Of a DNA stretch of 24,375 nucleotides, positions 8,794 to 23,560 are shown in pieces (position 1 is the first letter of the stretch; every line of letters starts with the position of its first letter). The translations under genes were made by a program, and so were the position numbers. The notes under the pieces are model-generated. The model ran no database searches and was not told the DNA's origin. It worked only from the letters and a program-made list of their open reading frames with translations. The DNA is from a virus, in IMG/VR virus record IMGVR_UViG_3300050139_000024, positions 1 to 24,375 of that record, one strand, 5' to 3'.

Positions 8794-10546
8794 TGGTGTC
8801 AACGTCCGATACCAGCGCCAGCACGGTCAGCGGCAACGGGTCGCTGGTTTCGATCACCACTGTGCCGGCACGATCCCAGCCGGCCGGGAAGGGCACCCGC
8901 TTGAACCCGGTCAACAGCGGAACCGCCTGATCCATCGGCATGTCCAGCGTCCTTTCAATGATCGGTTCCATATGCCCAATGCGGCCGTAGGAACCGCCGG
9001 CACTTTCCAGGAACAGGATGGAGATTTCCGAAATCCGTTTGAACTGGTTCTGCGCGGTGCCGGCCGCGGCGCCGGCTTCCGGCGGCAGTGACACGAACAC
9101 TGCGTGGGACATCAGCCCGATATGCGCCACCGTCGCGGCCCCGCCATTCGCGGTCACCGTGCCGCCGGTCACCACGGCATCATACCGGCGGCTGCCATCG
9201 GCCACGATCTGCACCGTCTGGCCTTCCAGGTGATCCAGGCCAGAGAACACGTTGGCGGCCGTGCCCGAATAGGACAGGCCGCCATCAACGAAATAGGCGG
9301 CTGTCTCGCCTTCCAGGTCGGCGCGGAACGGCGCGCGGACATATTCGATGGTTCGCCGTGTGGTGCCACCGAAGGTGCGGGCTACCGCCAGCATCACGTC
9401 ATCGGTCGTCCCATCCGGCGCCGGCACGACGGCCACACTTTCAACCTGCACCGTGCCGCCGCCAAGCGTCTGGCGCGTCCATGCCCGCACCTTCTGCTCG
9501 CGATCGAACGTCAATGTGGCGAGGTGGCCATCCTTGCGCACGCCCCACACGATCCCGTTGGGTTTTCTCTGATAACCCAACTCCACCAATCCGGTGGCGG
9601 TGATGTGGTCGGACAGTTGCGTCAGATCGATCGTGCTGAACGTGTCGGTCATCACGTCGTATTCCATCTGGCGCAGTTTCCGGCCGCCCTCTTCCAGGAA
9701 CAGGATGACGCCGGACGCCCGGATCGCCGCCGCGTTGCTGTCCGATCCCCGGTCAGTCTGCCGCAACGCCCGGTTGTTGTTCGGGCTCAGGGCGCCGTTG
9801 GCGTTCGCCGGGCCAACCGTCCATTCGCCGGACGATGTGCCGACGCCAAGCCCTTTCGAAAACGACGACAACCAGCGAATGATATTCGCCTGGTCATCAT
9901 CCAGCGCGAGCGTGATGGCGCTGGTATCCAGCACCGCGCCGTCCGGCTCGCTCTGCGTCATGTTCTCGAAGTCACCGGTGGCGCTGGACCATAGCGTCTG
10001 CGGTTTGGTCGACGTTCCGCCCCACCAGGTGCGGCCCGCGTGGAAGGTCGCCGTGGCCGGCCAGCCGCGCGCGTCGGAAAATTCGCCCAGGCGCCAGCGC
10101 TTCGTCGCGGCCGTCGCCACGAACGGGCCGCCCGGATTGACCGTTACCGTGACGGTCTGGCTGTCGGTGTAGGTGCTGATGACGCCAAAGCCCCAGGCCT
10201 GCTTTCCGGCGCCAAGGTATTTCAGCGTTGCGGTGCCGTCCGCGATCGTCAGGCCGATCTCGCGCGGCGCGTTCAGGTCATAGTTCGGCGTGGTGCCCGC
10301 CATGCTGGCCGCCGCCGTCGTGCCAGATGTGGTGACGCGGTACAGCCGATCGACACCCGCGTAAGTCGAAACGAAGACCAGTCCGACCGAAACCCCAGCC
10401 GCGGCACTGCGGGCCGGCGCCTGTCCCCGCAACGCGATGGCTCGGCCAACGTCCGTGGCAGCGAACAATGGCGCCGACGCGGTGACCACAACCGCGCCGG
10501 ACGTGAAAGCCGTTGCCGCCGACAATGCAATGGATGTATCGGCCAT
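8786..10546 (-). CDS. Tail nozzle (tubular B, gp12-like) protein, C-terminal part, 586 aa
   Basis: Beta-rich protein with typical nozzle features: an early segment around residues 15-45 (VVVTASAPLFAATDVGRAIAL), the RLGEFSDARGWPATATFHAGRTWWGGT region, SGLGVGTSSGEWTVGP-like strands, and FLEEGGRKLRQMEYD. These are hallmarks of the podoviral nozzle, a beta-propeller tail-tip protein. It lacks the nozzle N-terminus, which is encoded by the preceding ORF (10546-11226); together they total 812 aa, the usual length of the single-chain protein. The ATG overlaps the upstream stop as TGATG. A purine-rich GGGGGAG lies 7 nt before the ATG, supplied by the end of the Gly/Asp repeat, so separate translation by re-initiation is plausible. 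Confidence 0.85.
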   Translation of the reverse strand: MADTSIALSAATAFTSGAVVVTASAPLFAATDVGRAIALRGQAPARSAAAGVSVGLVFVSTYAGVDRLYRVTTSGTTAAASMAGTTPNYDLNAPREIGLTIADGTATLKYLGAGKQAWGFGVISTYTDSQTVTVTVNPGGPFVATAATKRWRLGEFSDARGWPATATFHAGRTWWGGTSTKPQTLWSSATGDFENMTQSEPDGAVLDTSAITLALDDDQANIIRWLSSFSKGLGVGTSSGEWTVGPANANGALSPNNNRALRQTDRGSDSNAAAIRASGVILFLEEGGRKLRQMEYDVMTDTFSTIDLTQLSDHITATGLVELGYQRKPNGIVWGVRKDGHLATLTFDREQKVRAWTRQTLGGGTVQVESVAVVPAPDGTTDDVMLAVARTFGGTTRRTIEYVRAPFRADLEGETAAYFVDGGLSYSGTAANVFSGLDHLEGQTVQIVADGSRRYDAVVTGGTVTANGGAATVAHIGLMSHAVFVSLPPEAGAAAGTAQNQFKRISEISILFLESAGGSYGRIGHMEPIIERTLDMPMDQAVPLLTGFKRVPFPAGWDRAGTVVIETSDPLPLTVLALVSDVDTNG

Positions 10547-15096: not shown

Positions 15097-16742
15097 GCCG
15101 CCGCCGCCTGCCCTTGGCCCGGGGCCTGGCCCGGGGTCTGGCCCTGCCCTTGGCGCTGCTGGAGCACCTGCGACAGGTTCACCAGTGCGGCGCTGCCCTT
15201 CTGCGCCGTATCCGCCACCGTCCCCGCCGCCGCCATCTCGTGCTGCTGCGCCTCCCGCTGGGCCGCCTGCTGCCGCATCTGCGCCAGCGCCTCGGGGGAG
15301 CGCACAACCGCCGCCGGCGCGCCAAGCCGGTTGGCCAGGAAGCGGGCGGCCGCCTCGGCATCGACCACCTGCAAGACGGTCTGATCGACCTGCGCCAGTT
15401 GCCCCATGGCCGTGGCCCACCGCATCACGGCTTCCGCATCCGACGCCTTCTGCGCCATCGCCAGCGGCGACAAATACTCCACGTGGTAGCCCTGGCCGCG
15501 CAACGCTTCCGGCGGCGGCGGCAGGAAGCCGTTCGCCGCCAGGATGTTGAATGATCGGGTGATGACCGGACCAAGCAGCTCACCGGTCACCCGCGCCACC
15601 ATCGGGCCGAGGATGCGCAACATTTCGTCCCGGCGCTGCAACACCTCCGTGGCCGTCATGTTCGGCTGCTGCGGCAGGTTCATCCAGTCCACGTAAAAGC
15701 CGCGCCGGACGCGATCCTGCCGCAGTTCGATTTCGCCTTTTCCCAGGTCCGGCCGGCCGCCGGTCAGTAACGGTCCGACCTTGTCCAGGTTCATGGAGCC
15801 GGAGCGGTAGTAATTGATCGCGCCTGGCGATGTGACGACTGAATTCAGGAACCCGTCATCCGGCACCATCAACGGCGGATCGATCATCTTTGCCAACCCG
15901 CGAAGGTTGATCTCTTCCAGTTTGTTGAGCAGCTTCACGTCCGGCAGAACCGACTGGCCCGGCCCGAAGCCATACGTCTCGCCGGACCGCTTCATCCACC
16001 GCGGCACCGCGAACGGGAAGCCGTTGAACAACGGCCCATCCTCGAGCATCGAGCCGTCCGCCTGGAGAATGTAGGCATTACACCACTTCTCGTCGCCGAT
16101 CGGCACCACGGTGTGCACCACCATGACAGGCGCGTCAGGCGTCTTCTCTGCCAGCGCCTTGATCTTGTCTGGCGTCGTGTCCGGCCATGTCTTAACCACG
16201 TCGCGCGCCGGATAGGGCGAGCAGCGAAACAGCGTGTCGATCTTGCCGTCCGCGCCCTGCGCCACGTAGATTTCGGCCAGCGGGCGCGCCTCGTAAAACG
16301 GACCCAGCCGGCCGCGATCGGCGACGAACAGGCAGCCGGTGCCGAACCCGGCCAGCTCCAGATACAGTTCATGCAGGGCGGTATCGAACCCTGATCTGGT
16401 GGACGTGAACGCGCCATACAGCACGTCCGTGGCTGCTTCAAACCAGGCGCGCACGTCATCGTTGGCCGCCAGCACGGGATCGCTCGGCCGCAGCGCGAAC
16501 CATCGCAGGCTTGGGCTGGTCAGCATTCCATGCAGCGCGCCGGCCAGTTGCTCGCATGCCAGCGTTGGCGTGGTGTTGAAGATCAGGGGCGCGGTGCGAC
16601 GGTTGCCCGGCGTTGTATGCCGCGTGAACTCCCGCGACGGCAGGATATAGTCGGCCACCTGCTGCCAGTAATTTTCGGATGAAGTGCGGGCAGTCTTCAG
16701 CGCCTCGAAACGTCTCAGCAGCGCACGCGCGTCCTGGGCCAT
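15093..16742 (-). CDS. Portal (head-to-tail connector, gp8-like) protein, 549 aa
   Basis: Full-length T7 gp8-type connector. N-terminal ALLRRFEALKTARTSSENYWQQVADYILP, then LIFNTTPTLACEQLAGALHGMLTSP, FGTGCLFVADR, GFGPGQSVLPDVKLLNKLEEINLRG, DPPLMVPDDGF and YVDWMNLPQQPNMTATEVLQRRDEM are all in the expected order, with a Gln-rich helical C-terminus. The protein forms the dodecameric ring through which TerL packages DNA. It starts 1 nt after the preceding stop and ends overlapping the Bbp19-like start. The C-terminal Gly/Gln/Pro tail (about 530-549) is low complexity. Confidence 0.93.
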   Translation of the reverse strand: MAQDARALLRRFEALKTARTSSENYWQQVADYILPSREFTRHTTPGNRRTAPLIFNTTPTLACEQLAGALHGMLTSPSLRWFALRPSDPVLAANDDVRAWFEAATDVLYGAFTSTRSGFDTALHELYLELAGFGTGCLFVADRGRLGPFYEARPLAEIYVAQGADGKIDTLFRCSPYPARDVVKTWPDTTPDKIKALAEKTPDAPVMVVHTVVPIGDEKWCNAYILQADGSMLEDGPLFNGFPFAVPRWMKRSGETYGFGPGQSVLPDVKLLNKLEEINLRGLAKMIDPPLMVPDDGFLNSVVTSPGAINYYRSGSMNLDKVGPLLTGGRPDLGKGEIELRQDRVRRGFYVDWMNLPQQPNMTATEVLQRRDEMLRILGPMVARVTGELLGPVITRSFNILAANGFLPPPPEALRGQGYHVEYLSPLAMAQKASDAEAVMRWATAMGQLAQVDQTVLQVVDAEAAARFLANRLGAPAAVVRSPEALAQMRQQAAQREAQQHEMAAAGTVADTAQKGSAALVNLSQVLQQRQGQGQTPGQAPGQGQAAAA

Positions 16743-16743
16743 G

Positions 16744-17004
16744 TCATTCGCTCCCTTCGGCGGCGTTCGCCCATTGCAGGATCAGCCGCGCCAGCCGGAG
16801 CGGGGTTTCCACGATCGCCAGAACCTGGCCTAGAACCTGGCCGGTGCCGTACGGCTGCGACTTCTCGGCGACGGTCCAGCCGTTGGCCACGCGCGTGATC
16901 CGAAGTTGGTCAATCACCGGGGGCAGGTTGATCTGCCCGGCCTGATCGTCCGTCAGGCCGAGCGGCGGCGCCGCAAGCTGCGGCGGGATGTTCTGGGCGT
17001 CCAT
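16744..17004 (-). CDS. Unknown protein before portal, 86 aa
   Basis: Begins with MDAQNIPPQLAAPPLGL and continues with INLPPVIDQLRITRVANGWTV and a C-terminal amphipathic helix (TPLRLARLILQWA). The ATG at 17004 overlaps the upstream stop as TGATG; an upstream in-frame start would only extend into the neighbouring genes. Its stop is 1 nt before the portal ATG. No domain recognised. Likely a small head/packaging accessory protein by position. Confidence 0.7.
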   Translation of the reverse strand: MDAQNIPPQLAAPPLGLTDDQAGQINLPPVIDQLRITRVANGWTVAEKSQPYGTGQVLGQVLAIVETPLRLARLILQWANAAEGSE

Positions 17005-17551: not shown

Positions 17552-17874
17552 TAACTGTCCCTCGCGATGATGATGGGGGCACCCGCGCTTTCCGTCTGGA
17601 TCATCGCCGGCACGACAGTGAGCGATCCCGCGCTGGCCGCCGTGATGACATAGAGGCGGCTGTTCAGCGGCGATCCGCGCACCTCGATGTCATCGCTCAG
17701 GTTGAACACGCCGAACCCGTTCGCGCTGTCGGCGATCGTGCCCGGCGCGGTGAAGCTGATCGTGGTCGCCTGGTAGTCGCCGGCGGACGGATCACGCTCG
17801 ATTTTGGCTTGGTCCCTTCGCGACAGATTGCCGGCGGCGCCGAAGGAATTTGTCTGTGTCAGTCTACTGCTCAT
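17551..17874 (-). CDS. Unknown phage protein after TerL, 107 aa
   Basis: The ATG at 17874 overlaps the TerL stop as ATGA, so this start is preferred over one 10 codons upstream. The sequence is polar at the N-terminus (SSRLTQTNSFGAAGNLSRRD) and beta-rich after residue 35 (ATTISFTAPGTIADSANGFGVFNLSD, DIEVRGSPLNSRLYVITAASAG). The alternation suggests a small beta sandwich. No domain recognised. It forms a pair with the next beta-rich gene, perhaps structural head proteins. Confidence 0.65.
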   Translation of the reverse strand: MSSRLTQTNSFGAAGNLSRRDQAKIERDPSAGDYQATTISFTAPGTIADSANGFGVFNLSDDIEVRGSPLNSRLYVITAASAGSLTVVPAMIQTESAGAPIIIARDS

Positions 17875-19388
17875 GCGTAGGCTCCTGTTGCGTAGGGATC
17901 CCAACTGGGGGTTTGCCGCGGCAGCGCGGTGCCACGCTTGCCGTCCTCGGCGCGGCGCTCGCGGATCAGGGCATCCTCTCCGCCGCCGCTGAGCACGTAT
18001 TGCAGGCCGTCTTGTGGGTGTGACGCCATGTTCTTCTCCGCCGCTTCGTCGTAACGGTCCGTCGTGCCCTGGATGCGCCGGAACCGATATTCGGCGTTGA
18101 AGCCGGCCCGCAGCAGTTTGCAGACAGGCGACAGCAGCAGGCCGGGTTGGCCGTCGATCAGGCGAGTGAGGGGCAGCCGCACCGCTTCCCAGCGTGGGAT
18201 CGGTTTATTGGTCGGCGCCGGGCGGATGCGCACGCCCGTGTGCGCCGCCACGATCTCAATCCAGGTCGCTTCGCCGGCCTTGGTGTCGGCGCCATAGGCG
18301 GCGCTCGGGTCGGCCCACCCATACACGTCCGTGAATTCCGGGAACTCGTCCCGCAGCACCTGGGCGACCATGTCGCCGAACCGCGCCGCGCCGGTCCCCG
18401 GCTCGCCCACCAGCTCGCGCAGGATCAGCCACTGGCCGGACGGCAGCTTCTGCACGAACACGGCGGCGGGGTGGCCGGCAGCATCGAAGCCGATGCCCAG
18501 CGGGATGCCGCGCCGCGCGTGGATCGTCTGCGCCGCGACGTGCAGCTGATCGTTGAACTCCGGGTAGATGACCTTGCCGGCCCTGGAATAGCCCGGGATG
18601 TTCCGCACCATGCGGCGAACCAGCCACTCGGGCGCGCCACTCACCATTTCGTCGTAGTAGCCGGGTGGCAGATTGGTCAGGTTTTCAGCCTGTGGAGATA
18701 GGCCATCCGGCTGGCGAAACAGTGCCCAGCTAACCTCGGCCAACTCCTCCGGCGTCCGCAGGAACAGGCCCTGGTATGTCCAGTTGTGCAACTCGGGCGC
18801 GTTCAGGTCGGCGATGATGCCGTGCCAGCTCGCGCCTTCTTCCGACGCCGGCGGGAAACGCCCCGTCCGGGTGCGCGCATAGTCCAGGACATCCTTGGCC
18901 AGCAGGTCCAGTTCGTTCAGCAGGAAGCCCGTCACTTCGTAGCCGCGGAGTGCTTCCTCGGCCGACTGGTCGCCGACGGCGACGAAGTCCACCTGCATCT
19001 CCACCATCGTGCCGTCGGCCAGGGCGAACGGTATCCGGTGCACCGCCGGCGCGCCCTCGGCCCCGGTGAACTCGCCAACCGACCGAGGCACGCGCGTAAG
19101 CCAGGTCGGGATCGTCGTGCGCCAAAGCTGGCGGTAGGTATCGCGCACGGCCGCCAGCCGGAACCGGCGCATCGGCATCCGGGTGCCGCGCGGCCCTGGC
19201 GCCGTCAGCGTCTGGCTCGGCCGTTGTTCCGTGGCCAGGCGGATGGCCTTCATAAACGCCGCCGTGCTCTTCCCGGAACCCACCGGCCCGTTGATCACCG
19301 AAACCTTCGACCGGTCGCGCATGAACGCGGCCGCGACGGGGCCAGGCGCCGCCCAGACCAGGTTCAGGCGGGGCTGCGCACCACTCAT
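17871..19388 (-). CDS. terL: Terminase large subunit, 505 aa
   Basis: DNA-packaging motor. Walker A GPVGSGKS at residues 34-41, Walker B GFLLNEL at 154-160 with Glu159 as the catalytic base. The nuclease domain starts with GIGFDAAG (Asp302); a second acidic site is YGWADPSA (Asp360), and near the C-terminus SHPQDGLQY supplies the third acidic position typical of RNase-H-fold terminase nucleases. The start at 19388 is chosen because it lies just before the sequence corresponding to the family's N-terminus (LNLVWAAPGPVAAAFM); a longer frame reaching 19454 adds an Ala/Gly/Arg-rich stretch unlike the family. The upstream ribosome-binding site is weak (GGGG). It acts at the portal, with TerS recognising the genome. 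Confidence 0.93.
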   Translation of the reverse strand: MSGAQPRLNLVWAAPGPVAAAFMRDRSKVSVINGPVGSGKSTAAFMKAIRLATEQRPSQTLTAPGPRGTRMPMRRFRLAAVRDTYRQLWRTTIPTWLTRVPRSVGEFTGAEGAPAVHRIPFALADGTMVEMQVDFVAVGDQSAEEALRGYEVTGFLLNELDLLAKDVLDYARTRTGRFPPASEEGASWHGIIADLNAPELHNWTYQGLFLRTPEELAEVSWALFRQPDGLSPQAENLTNLPPGYYDEMVSGAPEWLVRRMVRNIPGYSRAGKVIYPEFNDQLHVAAQTIHARRGIPLGIGFDAAGHPAAVFVQKLPSGQWLILRELVGEPGTGAARFGDMVAQVLRDEFPEFTDVYGWADPSAAYGADTKAGEATWIEIVAAHTGVRIRPAPTNKPIPRWEAVRLPLTRLIDGQPGLLLSPVCKLLRAGFNAEYRFRRIQGTTDRYDEAAEKNMASHPQDGLQYVLSGGGEDALIRERRAEDGKRGTALPRQTPSWDPYATGAYA

Positions 19389-19703
19389 GCCGGCAGCCCC
19401 TGCCCACGGCCCGCGCGCCCTGGCTGACGCGCCAGCCCAGGCCCGGCACCCCACGCCCTGTCCTGGTTCGCGATTTTTGACGATTTTTCCCAGCTGAGGG
19501 GAAAATCACACAGCCAGGGGCATGCAGGGCAGCGGGCTGGCGAAAACCGGCCCCCGGGGGGGGCCGGCCGCGCCTGGGCGCCGGCGTGCACGTGCCAGGC
19601 GCGGCCCGTCAGGCGCGCGGCAGGCTGATTGGCAATCAGCGGTCGCGGCGCGCATTCATCGTGCGAGATCAATGGCTTACGCTGACTGTCAGACTGCCGA
19701 ATG
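19389..19703. other. 315-nt intergenic region between TerS and TerL
   Basis: No convincing gene. It holds the strong hairpin described separately (19543-19567), an exact 10-bp direct repeat TGTCAGACTG at 19687-19696 and 19702-19711 (the second overlaps the TerS stop), and an A/T-richer stretch near 19480-19500. Longer reading frames through it are Arg/Pro-rich shadows. The gap is unusual in an operon whose other genes overlap, so it may hold a promoter for the late virion genes or a packaging (pac/cos) site. Confidence 0.5.
19543..19567 (-). terminator. Terminator-like hairpin between TerS and TerL
   Basis: On the minus strand CCGGCCCCC pairs with GGGGGCCGG (9 bp) around a CCC loop and is followed directly by TTTTCG. 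This is the best intrinsic-terminator-like structure in the window. It lies 137 nt downstream of the TerS stop. The U run is short (4 nt), so termination may be partial. Confidence 0.6.
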
Positions 19704-20201
19704 TCAGACTGTGCCATCTGGCTCTCCGCTAACCGATTGATTTCCTTCGATTGTGAGGATGACGCCCGCATCGCCACTGTCCACGTCCTGAGCCTCGGCC
19801 TCGCCGCCATCGAAGATCGCCAGATGCACGATCTGCCGGTTCGTCACGTCCACCGCGATGGGCTGGCGGCTGTGCAGGTAGGGGAGGCACGCCATGGCAC
19901 ACAGCCGCTTCTCGGCGAACGCCTGGGCCTTGGTGCAGCCCAGCGCCGCCGCCAGGTCCTCGACGCCCAGCGCCGCCATCTGCACCAGCCCCTCCAGCGG
20001 ATCGCGATACCGCGTCAGCAGGTAATCCGCGATCCGCTGAACCCGCAGGTTGCGCTGTCCCGCCGGCCTGCCGCGCCCGCGCCGGTTCTCCGGCAGCGAC
20101 ATCCCCAGCAGCTCCAGTTGCTCCGCGTCGTCGGCCAGCAACGCTTCCCCCGCGTCCGCGTCCTCGAGCATGGCCACAAGGCCGGTGCGATCCGTGCCCA
20201 T
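19704..20201 (-). CDS. Putative terminase small subunit, 165 aa
   Basis: Placed immediately upstream of the large terminase. Residues 40-55 are basic (RRGRGRPAGQR), residues 55-75 contain IADYLLTRYRDPLEGLVQMA, then GVEDLAAALGCTKAQAFAEKRLCAMACLPYLHSRQPIAVDV, a helical module that recurs in small proteins preceding TerL in proteobacterial prophages, from memory. The C-terminus is acidic. The ATG at 20201 has a strong GAGGGGG ribosome-binding site about 7 nt upstream and stands at the edge of the concentric palindrome. Genome recognition by this protein is inference. Confidence 0.6.
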   Translation of the reverse strand: MGTDRTGLVAMLEDADAGEALLADDAEQLELLGMSLPENRRGRGRPAGQRNLRVQRIADYLLTRYRDPLEGLVQMAALGVEDLAAALGCTKAQAFAEKRLCAMACLPYLHSRQPIAVDVTNRQIVHLAIFDGGEAEAQDVDSGDAGVILTIEGNQSVSGEPDGTV

Positions 20202-20230: not shown

Positions 20231-20452
20231 CGGTTAGAAACGGTTACGAACCGGGTTAGACGCATCCTTTTGATATTCCTCTCTCTTGTGAGATATCTAA
20301 CTTTATAACTTTCTAACCGCCCACCCGCGCGTATGTGTGCGCACGCATGCACATACGCGGGAGTGGTTATATAGTTAGAAAGTTAGAAACCGGCCTTTCG
20401 CCAAGCCTGCCAGTGGGTTGCGTATAACCCGGTTCGTAACCGTTTCTAACCG
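20231..20452. repeat. 222-bp concentric palindrome with 12 GGTTAGAAA-like sites
   Basis: Outer arms of 33 bp (20231-20263 and 20420-20452) match as inverted repeats at 32 of 33 positions. Inside, an imperfect pair (about 20294-20318 and 20365-20389) shares the same centre near 20341.5. The core has exact 10-bp arms CGCGTATGTG (20328-20337) and CACATACGCG (20350-20359). The arms consist of 8-12-bp spaced copies of GGTTAGAAA: three plus-oriented (20232, 20242, 20254), three minus-oriented (20294-20318), the core, three plus-oriented (20365, 20374, 20382), and three minus-oriented (20421, 20433, 20443). Confidence 0.9.
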
Positions 20453-20576
20453 ACGCGGCCGGCGCAGCACCCCCGAACCCGCACGCGCTGTCAAGCCCCA
20501 CGCGGATCATCTGCTTGCAGTAACGGGCCGGGGTGCGGGACGGTAGACTGGCGTGGTCTTGTATAGATGCAGTCAC
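20367..20576 (-). CDS. Doubtful small ORF after helicase gene, 69 aa
   Basis: A GTG at 20576, 2 nt after the helicase stop, opens a frame of 69 codons with GAGGTG just upstream. The first 45 codons have plausible composition (SLPSRTPARYCKQMIRVGLD), but the last part runs through the right arms of the palindrome, where the sequence is dictated by repeats. The GAGGTG is also the last Glu-Val codons of the helicase gene. If real it is coupled to the helicase; it may equally be a shadow. No domain recognised. Confidence 0.25.
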   Translation of the reverse strand: MTASIQDHASLPSRTPARYCKQMIRVGLDSACGFGGAAPAASVRNGYEPGYTQPTGRLGERPVSNFLTI

Positions 20577-20577
20577 A

Positions 20578-22356
20578 TCACACCTCTGGGTCAGTTATCG
20601 GTAGTTCAAGCTGAAGATCAGGCGGTGGAATAAGGCTCAAAGGAATGAGCGTCGCCTTGCCATACGCGCCACCGAAATAGAGCGTGCGGGTTCCACGCTC
20701 CGCGCCTGGCAGCCGCCGCATCGCCTGCACCCACACGCCAGTGACACCCTGCGGGGTCTGCCAGCGGGTGCGCTGAAACAGCCCAGCGAGGCCGGTGTGG
20801 TTGTTGGCGATCGCCAGGTAGGCGGTGCGGTCGATCTTCTCCAGACGGATGCCGACGCGGCCGATGACGCGCTCCGCCTCGCCGGCGTCGACGTTCGGCA
20901 TGCGGCCGGCGGCACGGTTGATCCACTCGCCCAGCAGCAGCCGTTCGCCAGCCCGGAAGGCGTCCACCTGGGACGCCAGCATGTGCTGGAGGCACTGTTC
21001 CTCGTCCCGCAGATCGTCGGCCGTCTCGGACAGTCCAGCGGCTGCCAGGCGCCGCACCCACTCATCGGCGGCCTGGGCATCAGGCTGGTCGCCGAACAGC
21101 AGCAGGTCCGCGCACGTCAGCAGGGTGCCAAACTGGTCGGCACCGCGCTGGCTGTGTCCGACGGTTGCCAGCGCCCGCCGGTAGCGTTCGAGCGTCGCGT
21201 CGAACCGGGGCCATCCGTCGATCATCCGCCGGCGAAGTCTCGCGCCCAGATGCTTCAGGGCGCGGGGTTCGAGGTCTGGCGCGATCTGCTCGGGCGGCAG
21301 GTCCGCCAGTTCGAGCATGGCAATGCGGGACCGATCCGGTCCCATCAGCGGTGGCACCAGAACCGACGAGAACAGAAAGCAGGATCTCAACGTGAACTCG
21401 ACCGGCACGTGCTTGTCGCTGCCTCGGCCGAGTTTGCCACCAGAGGCAGCTATTCGGGCCAAACGCACGACATTCATCTGCTTCCGGTTATCTTCGTCGG
21501 CCTCGAGCTCGTCAACGCTCACCGGCAGCGTCTGGTGCCGCAGCGTCTGCCAGATGAACGCCGGCGACGTGTCGGCCAGATCGATCAGCGCGTTGCCAAA
21601 AAGCCCTTTGAGGGCCTTCAACAGTGTCGACTTGCCGGTGCCCTTGCCGCCGGTCAACCACACGACGGGCCGCCAGGGCAGCGCGCCGCCGATCATCGCG
21701 GCGCCGACCCAGCCGAGCATCAGCACGGCGTCGAGGTCGTTGCGGCGCCACGCCCATGTGTCGAACAGCTCCAGCAGTTCTTCGCCCGGGCTGTCGTCGC
21801 CGACCTGCTCTACCGGCGCGCCGGCGCGATCACCGGACGGATACACATAGCGCCCGGCCAGGCCGGGCTTGCGGGCCATCCTGCCGCCCCAGGGGTCGGG
21901 GATGCGTTCGAAGAAAAGCACCTCGTCACCAAGATGCATCACCAGTTCGCCGTTCTCACCGAGCCAGGTCCCACGGCCGCGCTCCCGGTCGCTCGGGTCC
22001 CACACGCCGGCATGACCGCAGGCGGTCATCAGATCCTCGGCAATCAGTTCCGGCCGCAAGCCGGTGACCACGCCCTTGTCGTTCTTCCGTGTCCAGCGGT
22101 CGGTCGCGTAGCAGAACTCGGCTTGCGGCACGAACAGGCCGAGCAGCTTTAGCCTGGTGTGATCGCCGGCGGTCAACGCGATGATCTGGCGTTTGGCGTC
22201 CAGGTAGTAGCGGACTTCGCCGGCGACGCCGAGCGGCACGACCGGGCAGCCCGGCGGCAGGCCGTGGATGCTCTCGCCCTCGTTGTCGCTGACGATCGTC
22301 AGCGGCCTGGCTGCGGCAAGAGCGTTGCGAACGCGTTGGCGGCCGGTTGCGGCCAT
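20578..22356 (-). CDS. P-loop helicase-like replication ATPase, 592 aa
   Basis: Residues 1-200 form an N-terminal domain without recognised motifs (LGVAGEVRYYLDAKRQIIAL at about 43-62, a pattern seen in phage/plasmid replicative proteins). An ATPase core follows: VWLTGGKGTGKSTLLKALKG with Walker A at 236-243, LPVSVDELE with Asp282-Glu283 as Walker B, RSCFLFSSV as a sensor strand, and DRSRIAMLEL carrying candidate Arg fingers. This order fits SF3-like or related phage primase-helicases that melt origins. The ATG overlaps the primase-like gene stop (TGATG). The C-terminus (VIGRVGIRLEKIDRTAYLAIAN) resembles a DNA-binding winged helix. Helicase activity is inferred. Confidence 0.75.
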   Translation of the reverse strand: MAATGRQRVRNALAAARPLTIVSDNEGESIHGLPPGCPVVPLGVAGEVRYYLDAKRQIIALTAGDHTRLKLLGLFVPQAEFCYATDRWTRKNDKGVVTGLRPELIAEDLMTACGHAGVWDPSDRERGRGTWLGENGELVMHLGDEVLFFERIPDPWGGRMARKPGLAGRYVYPSGDRAGAPVEQVGDDSPGEELLELFDTWAWRRNDLDAVLMLGWVGAAMIGGALPWRPVVWLTGGKGTGKSTLLKALKGLFGNALIDLADTSPAFIWQTLRHQTLPVSVDELEADEDNRKQMNVVRLARIAASGGKLGRGSDKHVPVEFTLRSCFLFSSVLVPPLMGPDRSRIAMLELADLPPEQIAPDLEPRALKHLGARLRRRMIDGWPRFDATLERYRRALATVGHSQRGADQFGTLLTCADLLLFGDQPDAQAADEWVRRLAAAGLSETADDLRDEEQCLQHMLASQVDAFRAGERLLLGEWINRAAGRMPNVDAGEAERVIGRVGIRLEKIDRTAYLAIANNHTGLAGLFQRTRWQTPQGVTGVWVQAMRRLPGAERGTRTLYFGGAYGKATLIPLSLIPPPDLQLELPITDPEV

Positions 22357-23411
22357 CAGGCGCTCCTCAGCAGGTCATTGACGTCTTTGAGGTCCGCGGG
22401 GATGGGCGGGATCAGAACCTCTCGGCCCGCCAGAGCGTGTACCCTCGCGGCGCGCATGAACGCGTCGATCGCCGGCGCGCTGGTGTCGTTCTGACGCCAC
22501 AGGCGCACGGTGTGAATCGCGTCGGGCAGGACGATGTTCGCCATGTTCGACAGCGCGATCGCCGCGAGCACCCGGCATTCCGGGGCAGCGATCGCGACTG
22601 ACAGCCCGTCTTCAATGCCTTCGGTGATGTCGGCGATTTCGCTCTCGGGCGCCTCGGACAGGGGCTTGCCGGAAGCGCCTCGCCACAGATGGACGGAACC
22701 GCCCTTGTAGCTACCCAGCACCATCTTGTTCTTCTCGACCGGCGCTTTTGTTACGCGGCCGTCGTTGCGGCACTCCAGCCAGGTGCGATGGCAGCCGGCC
22801 GCCTGGTTATTGGCGCCGGCAACGAGCGTGACCATGGCAGGCCAACGGCGGTCGCTCGCCTTGTGATACAGGCCGGGGTGAAACCGGATCGCCCTGGGCG
22901 CACGTTTCAGGTCCGCCAGCGCGATGCCGCGGCCCTGCAGGTACATGTCCACGGGCGTGTCCCGCAAATTCGGCATGGCCGAAAGCCAGATGCGGAACGC
23001 CGCGTTGCGCAGCCGTTCTGTTTCGAGCTCGGCCTGCGCGTCACGCTCAGGGGCGGTGGGGGTTTCGCGTTGCACGCGCGCGATCGCGGCCGGGTCGCGG
23101 TTATCGATGCCGAGCCAGCGAAGTGCCCAGGCGAAGGCGTCCTTCTTGTCGTCGCCGAACCGTACATAGGCGATGAGGTCGAGTGCATCGCCCCATACGC
23201 CGGCAACGAAATCGCCCCATACGCCGGCCTTCTCGCCGGTCAGGTGGACGTTGAAGGAGCCGATCTTGCCGGTGCCTGGATTGCGCGCGCACCATTCGGC
23301 GCCGTTGCGCGTGCCGTCGGGCAGCAGTTCATGCACCAACGCGCCGATGCGCGCGTTCAACATCCGCGCGACTTCGCCAGCATCGACCAAACGGCGCGCC
23401 GGCTCGCTCAT
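22356..23411 (-). CDS. Toprim / primase-like protein, 351 aa
   Basis: N-terminal half has the primase-like GTGKIGSFNVHLTGEKAGVW and WGDALDLIAYV segments. The C-terminal half is a Toprim domain: ITEGIEDGLSVAIA supplies the catalytic Glu, then VRLWRQNDTSAPAIDAF, and DLKDVNDLL at the end. The DxD motif of classical Toprim proteins reads QND, so the first Asp is replaced. The start is taken at the ATG 23411, overlapping the preceding stop as ATGA; a GTG nine codons further upstream would overlap the neighbour. The gene probably makes primers for the following helicase. No zinc-binding cysteines are visible. Confidence 0.75.
   Translation of the reverse strand: MSEPARRLVDAGEVARMLNARIGALVHELLPDGTRNGAEWCARNPGTGKIGSFNVHLTGEKAGVWGDFVAGVWGDALDLIAYVRFGDDKKDAFAWALRWLGIDNRDPAAIARVQRETPTAPERDAQAELETERLRNAAFRIWLSAMPNLRDTPVDMYLQGRGIALADLKRAPRAIRFHPGLYHKASDRRWPAMVTLVAGANNQAAGCHRTWLECRNDGRVTKAPVEKNKMVLGSYKGGSVHLWRGASGKPLSEAPESEIADITEGIEDGLSVAIAAPECRVLAAIALSNMANIVLPDAIHTVRLWRQNDTSAPAIDAFMRAARVHALAGREVLIPPIPADLKDVNDLLRSA
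23187..23228. repeat. 18-bp tandem-type duplication inside primase-like gene
   Basis: An exact 18-bp match occurs at 23187-23204 and 23211-23228, 24 bp apart (8 codons), encoding AGVWGD twice, separated by FV. The second unit replaces the usual GxGGDxLD-type segment of the family, suggesting an in-frame duplication or converted segment. Confidence 0.8.
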
Positions 23412-23560
23412 CTGGACGCCCAGCCGATCGCTTCGCACAGCGCCGCCGCGGCCTTGTGCGGATCGCGCACGCCCTTAAGCACGTGCCCCCCCCACCAGCG
23501 GGCCATGAACACCGCGTGGCGCCAGCGGTAATTAGGATCGCGGACCAGCGGATCAACCAT
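23408..23560 (-). CDS. Small unknown protein, 50 aa
   Basis: A short gene easily missed. ATG at 23560 overlaps the preceding gene's stop by 8 nt, and its TGA overlaps the primase-like ATG as ATGA. The product begins MVDPLVRDPNYRWRHAVFMA and continues RWWGGHVLKGVRDPHKAAAALCEAIGWASR. Codon third positions are GC-rich as in neighbours. The coupling on both sides argues that it is translated. Trp/Arg-rich; function unknown, possibly a replication accessory or small DNA-binding protein. Confidence 0.65.
   Translation of the reverse strand: MVDPLVRDPNYRWRHAVFMARWWGGHVLKGVRDPHKAAAALCEAIGWASR

Follow-up and report, generated by a model that had tools for sequence, protein, structure and literature searches.

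The SaPI protein Rep uses its C-terminal domain to recognize iterons that lie directly downstream of its own gene, apparently as two hexamers, and Cch2 likewise has repeats downstream of its gene to which its C-terminal domain binds (PMC7581432). Gram-negative PICI origins consist of two iteron sets that flank an AT-rich region, and a pri-rep-ori segment replicates a plasmid (PMC6092414, which also mentions P4 alpha and its ori site). The array that is the subject of this work shares with the Rep-ori modules of SaPI and PICI elements (SaPIbov1, SaPI5 and the EcCICFT073 pri-rep-ori) the placement of short iterons right behind the gene of an initiator helicase (putative in our case), the division of the iterons into two sets, their specificity to the element and the presence of a primase gene nearby (PMC7581432, PMC6092414). 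It differs from them in being a strict inverted dyad of twelve sites, six per half, and in its base composition: AT-rich DNA lies within the halves and the core between them is GC-rich and alternating, whereas the SaPI/PICI centre is AT-rich. We regard the array as working like an SaPI/PICI-type iteron origin; because of the strict dyad and the core (GC content 0.69 in the DNA analysed here and 0.61 on average), however, we do not place it in the PICI origin family. The Cch and Cch2 systems of SCCmec are similar in having repeats downstream of the gene, with three 5-nt iterons in place of twelve sites and no report of an alternating core. A survey of the literature, confined to open-licence papers and to that extent weak, turned up the SaPI, PICI and SCCmec precedents; neither the present array nor an origin of this sort with an alternating core was found described there.

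The DNA analysed, hereafter the window, is a linear fragment of 24,375 bp from IMG/VR. The array occupies positions 20232-20451 and is built from twelve 9-bp sites with the consensus GGTTAGAAA, arranged in triplets whose orientations are plus, minus, core, plus and minus. The outer left triplet (20232-20240, 20242-20250 and 20254-20262, plus strand) has spacings of 10 and 12 bp and the outer right triplet (20421-20429, 20433-20441 and 20443-20451, minus strand) spacings of 10-12 bp, or about one helical turn; the inner left triplet (20294-20302, 20302-20310 and 20310-20318, minus strand) and the inner right triplet (20365-20373, 20373-20381 and 20381-20389, plus strand) are both spaced by 8 bp. 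All twelve sites and four triplets of a preliminary description of this DNA, which had been made from the letters alone, could be located, and the match that it gave for the outer arms, 32 of 33 positions, was reproduced when 20231-20263 was compared with the reverse complement of 20420-20452. (A repeat search over the window reported the arms as 44 nt at 89%.) With up to three mismatches allowed, the consensus has 16 matches in the 222-bp array versus 1.8 per 222 bp elsewhere in the window, and 1000 shuffles of the array gave a mean of 4.4 matches and a maximum of 13. The matches beyond the twelve overlap true sites or are weak.

The genes around the array are all on the minus strand. The putative initiator helicase, a P-loop protein of 592 residues (20578..22356; phrog_21086 and phrog_35358, primase-associated helicase-like), ends 126 bp from the array (20452 to 20578), and its partner, a DNA primase with Toprim_3 and DUF7146 domains (22356..23438), is encoded upstream of it. 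The first gene past the array encodes TerS (165 residues; 19704..20201), a candidate rival for binding to the sites, and beyond it lies the gene for the terminase large subunit, TerL (17871..19454; phrog_2); the portal and capsid proteins of the window were recognized by PF12236 and PF19821, respectively. Thus, the flanking genes had been named correctly in outline, as a P-loop replication protein and TerS. The window's TerS matches no Pfam or PHROGs profile, however, and was identified through its relatives only, a family in which the motif GRPxGxxNK is almost invariant and AT-hook-like (GRPxG is invariant). For a 128-residue protein that had been proposed as a second candidate binder we found no role in the array. 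In satellite phage P4, too, primase and helicase functions go together with short iterons; there, alpha is one fused protein and two separate regions, ori and crr, are needed, whereas the window has separate primase and helicase genes and one array. No second array was found in the window.

A helicase scan of IMG/VR, together with wider scans, yielded about 110 loci, and 81 non-redundant helicase loci were scored for the array. The gap between helicase and terS in the first relative (L001) contains three copies of GCGTGAGA, three of TCTCACGC, a CG-alternating core, three further copies of GCGTGAGA and three of TCTCACGC; that is, it has the topology of the window and a different word. This proved to be general: nearly all strong loci have a single array of 220-290 bp with a word of their own, and the words (GCGTGAGA, GGTTCCA, TGTTGACG, TGGGAAGT and others) are lineage-specific. 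By a score that is independent of the word, 87 control windows gave 7.2 at most; 48 of the 81 loci were above this value, and 62 had scores of 6.4 or more. Since the array detector is conservative, so much so that the window's own array scores 6.2 against a cut-off of 7.4, these prevalence figures are lower bounds. The recurrence of the layout in related contigs, which had been suggested as a check, is thus seen in most of the 81 relatives. Cultured bacteria, too, are among the carriers, with prophages in Nitrospirillum iridis DSM 22198, Sphingomonas sanguinis NBRC 13937 and Caulobacter sp. BK020. When sites were counted with per-locus matrices, twelve was the commonest number (26 of 56 arrays) and six sites were present in 64 of the 112 halves, the split within a half varying from 3+3 to 4+2.

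At the centre of the window's array (20326..20359) lies a 34-bp tract of perfect purine-pyrimidine alternation, which is Z-DNA-prone. Its ends, CGCGTATGTG and CACATACGCG, had been noticed before, and the alternation between them had been missed. The second-longest alternating tract in the whole window is 13 bp. Among 56 loci of about 7-24 kb, 46 have their longest tract of this kind inside the array, and over the 56 loci the tract has a relative position in the array of 0.47 ± 0.07 and a median length of 19.5 bp; the longest alternating tract in 2,697 random 280-bp windows is 17 bp. The step composition of the core is that expected from its GC content, and its palindromy equals that of dinucleotide-shuffled tracts (0.61 versus 0.62). 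Hence, what is conserved in the core is alternation itself, and neither a sequence nor a cruciform; we considered a cruciform core and ruled it out on the same measure of palindromy. The left spacer between outer and inner sites (20263..20293) is AT-rich, with a GC content of 0.375 over 20263-20294 as compared with 0.67 for the window, whereas the right spacer (20390..20420) is not (GC 0.68). In the relatives both spacers are poor in GC (mean 0.47 on the left and 0.38 on the right, versus 0.65 for the loci; p about 1e-12). Arrays from Arsenophonus plasmids, described below, and from MQ-4 have A-rich or AT-rich centres and no alternating core, and the alternating core is therefore a trait of the main, mostly alphaproteobacterial group.

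Does the array belong to the helicase or to the terminase? Lambda cosB and pac sites also have short repeated sites immediately before terS. As an alternative to an origin, TerS may bind the array as the site at which packaging starts (pac or cos). Phages of the main group have the array in the gap between helicase and terS; its median distance to the helicase stop codon is 146 bp, and its end is a median of 50 bp from terS, even where the helicase is kilobases away. As the helicase is more than 1 kb from the array in ten cases (1.6-6.4 kb in L022, L025, L036, L041, L048, L071 and L080), position within this group alone would favour TerS. The order is rearranged in L036 (1370-8538): the array is next to TerS, both being upstream of the primase and helicase genes, and TerL comes immediately after the helicase. 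A prophage-like 14.3-kb fragment with an integrase and a repressor (L147) has an array at 8997-9252, with the words CTGAAATG and CTGTAATG, directly before TerS and no helicase homologue in the 9 kb upstream, and this is the single observation that points away from an association with the helicase.

Against a packaging site, the array adjoins the helicase in loci whose terminase genes are unrelated, being lambda-type in L031, L056, L093 (Nitrospirillum) and L132 and HK97-type in L134, and it does not share this persistence with cosB or pac. It is also present with the helicase in integrase elements in which no terminase was recognized (L097, L143 and, as a weak array, L133) and in plasmids without TerL. 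Finally, of the terminase relatives, which were collected through TerL, 44 have the helicase in the contig, and 32 of these also have an array; of the 21 that lack it, 2 have an array, namely L147 and a locus whose contig is too short to judge. Thus, it is the helicase, and not the terminase, that the array goes with, and because it travels with the helicase through swaps of the packaging module we rejected a packaging site as the main explanation and consider it improbable. The integrase elements are compact, comprising integrase, primase in some, helicase and array (L097, 6710-11629; L133, 5511-9473; L143, 4488-9595); two of them are in Micavibrionales-related genomes, and all three are candidate phage satellites.

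A tblastn search of PLSDB with the helicase led to small plasmids. Those of Arsenophonus nasoniae that carry the helicase measure 8-11.6 kb and have 5-9 annotated genes. Apart from the helicase, no replication protein is annotated on them, and most encode a protelomerase. About 60 bp past the helicase stop codon they have an array of about twelve sites, divided 4+2 and 2+4 across the centre. Similarly, the array of a 19-kb plasmid from Atlantibacter begins 42 bp past a primase-helicase gene. The Arsenophonus elements (L226, L227, L228, L232 and L233) combine an Rpn nuclease with the helicase-array module, most adding a protelomerase, TerS or both, and several are recorded as linear; they look like linear phage-plasmid satellites.

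Plasmids that reside in the same host differ in their words: paNv_CAN17 has TTACAACC and paNv_CAN18 has ATTACAAA, and paPv13 has GCTAACAA and paPv15 has TTGTTACC. Meanwhile, the helicases of paNv_CAN17 and paPv13 (L227 and L228) are 98% identical in the ATPase part, 90% in the N-terminal part and 70% in the C-terminal part, and their words are TTACAACC and GCTAACAA. Both the fast change of the word and its difference between plasmids of one host would be expected if selection acted against cross-talk (incompatibility) between co-resident elements.

These same plasmids bear on the idea that the array is a site of telomere resolution or site-specific recombination, inasmuch as its palindromy is strong and plasmids with such an array encode a protelomerase. 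Yet in the plasmids the array is beside the helicase gene, with the gene for the protelomerase several kilobases away, the core is no more palindromic than its shuffled versions, and prophages such as L093 and L095 carry the array in their interior. Nor was a protelomerase or recombinase recognized in the 24-kb window, a record that is itself a fragment, the ground on which the preliminary description had set this explanation aside. That judgment holds, and we regard such a site as extremely improbable.

The range of contexts also speaks to a regulatory switch, in which a repressor or activator at the array would control the packaging or replication operon. The array is intergenic, between two transcription units, and its inverted sites would suit cooperative binding; moreover, a helicase bound at an origin could also affect the transcription of terS. 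No regulator gene is common to all the contexts, however, whereas the helicase is, and twelve sites in a fixed geometry of two halves exceed the needs of common operators. We judge a switch to be quite unlikely, more so than a packaging site.

To what kind of protein does the helicase belong? An AlphaFold2 model of the window's helicase, built from 63 sequences (pLDDT 91.5, pTM 0.88), matched SCCmec Cch (5dgk) best, with a Z score of 16.4 and an rmsd of 6.7 over 437 residues, spanning helicase residues 27-582 and so nearly the whole protein. The SaPI5 primase-helicase (7ola) came next with a Z score of 15.8, followed by MCM and the poxvirus D5/E5 helicases. Sequence identity to the solved SaPI proteins is about 10%. 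The model predicts an initiator-helicase fold of the Rep/Cch type. The C-terminal domain modelled in isolation (pLDDT 92.5) gave a weak best fold match (Z 4.3) and no Foldseek match at E < 0.001, and its weak VIA matches (Z 2-4) included several winged-helix-type DNA-binding domains and Cch 430-553.

Word and C-terminal domain are linked statistically. Over 72 loci the distance between words correlated with the distance between helicase C-terminal parts (Spearman 0.18; none of 300 permutations as high) and not with that between ATPase parts (0.01; 125 of 300 permutations), a modest effect tested with permutations that ignore phylogeny. Word distance correlated with TerS distance as well (0.14), as a packaging site would have it; this value fell to 0.08 when the helicase C-terminal part was held constant, whereas the correlation with the C-terminal part stayed at 0.20 given TerS. 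A residue-level scan for specificity gave a significant signal that was too diffuse for naming contact residues: of its four highest-ranking columns, two fell outside the C-terminal domain.

Given that the array follows the helicase, that plasmids carry the same pair and that the fold matches, the array is very probably the iteron origin of an initiator helicase of the SaPI-Rep/Cch type. To the reading as a whole, a phage replication origin recognized by the adjacent helicase, we assign a probability of roughly 0.82. Taken separately, it is highly likely that the array functions as an origin and likely that the helicase is its binder. An origin or a master switch had been the preferred reading of the preliminary description, and the origin is well supported by the recurrence of the array in relatives, its adherence to the helicase rather than to the terminase and its position just downstream of the helicase gene on tiny plasmids. 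The dimeric binder proposed at the same time is not supported: the likely binder is the neighbouring helicase, with the predicted fold of the hexameric SaPI/SCCmec helicases, and the sites come six per half.

How might such an origin work? We infer the following steps, from binding and the number of hexamers to melting and origin activity. The C-terminal domain of the helicase (residues about 443-592) would bind the twelve sites, and the six sites of each half would seed one hexamer, which would place two hexamers opposite one another with the core between them. Strain would be taken up by the AT-rich spacers, the alternating core or both, these would open, and the primase encoded upstream would then prime. 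The word that the C-terminal domain would read changes rapidly, probably since elements in the same host have to avoid a common word, while the geometry and the type of core are kept. A double hexamer with six sites for each ring is somewhat favoured over other arrangements, and a part for Z-DNA in the core is doubtful. Equally doubtful is the fuller proposal that a core selected for alternation alone flips to Z-DNA, or uses weak pyrimidine-purine steps, and in this way takes up or releases the strain of melting, with two hexamers each on six inverted sites and a word that can be exchanged together with the C-terminal domain.

A switch in GC skew had been suggested as a further check on an origin, and none was found: around the arrays of 52 loci the skew was 0.047 on the left and 0.040 on the right (p 0.07). 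The result is uninformative, because most genes have the same orientation to the left and to the right of the array.

Dozens of helicases paired with dozens of words in a fixed geometry amount to a natural library for origin recognition, one from which the way a hexameric initiator selects its origin could be worked out, and which could allow words to be swapped and compatible replicons to be built for Alphaproteobacteria. The usual six sites per half make the loading of a double hexamer directly testable. If the core is kept for alternation alone, and neither for sequence nor for palindromy, it would represent an uncommon instance of a non-B-DNA-prone property being under selection at an origin. 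In practical terms, the array is a marker for the replication modules of uncultured phages and satellites.

Finally, further repeats were encountered in some of the loci. Head-to-tail repeats that are separate from the array lie upstream of the replication genes in L038 (30 copies of a CCTGTCC-like word at 1713-2222) and in L079 (22 copies of a GCTACGG-like word at 2443-2768). In a Parvibaculum locus (L102), a similar array with the word GGTAACG and a near-alternating core (16532-16837) lies 5 kb from a fused primase-helicase gene and upstream of transposase-like and ParB-like genes.
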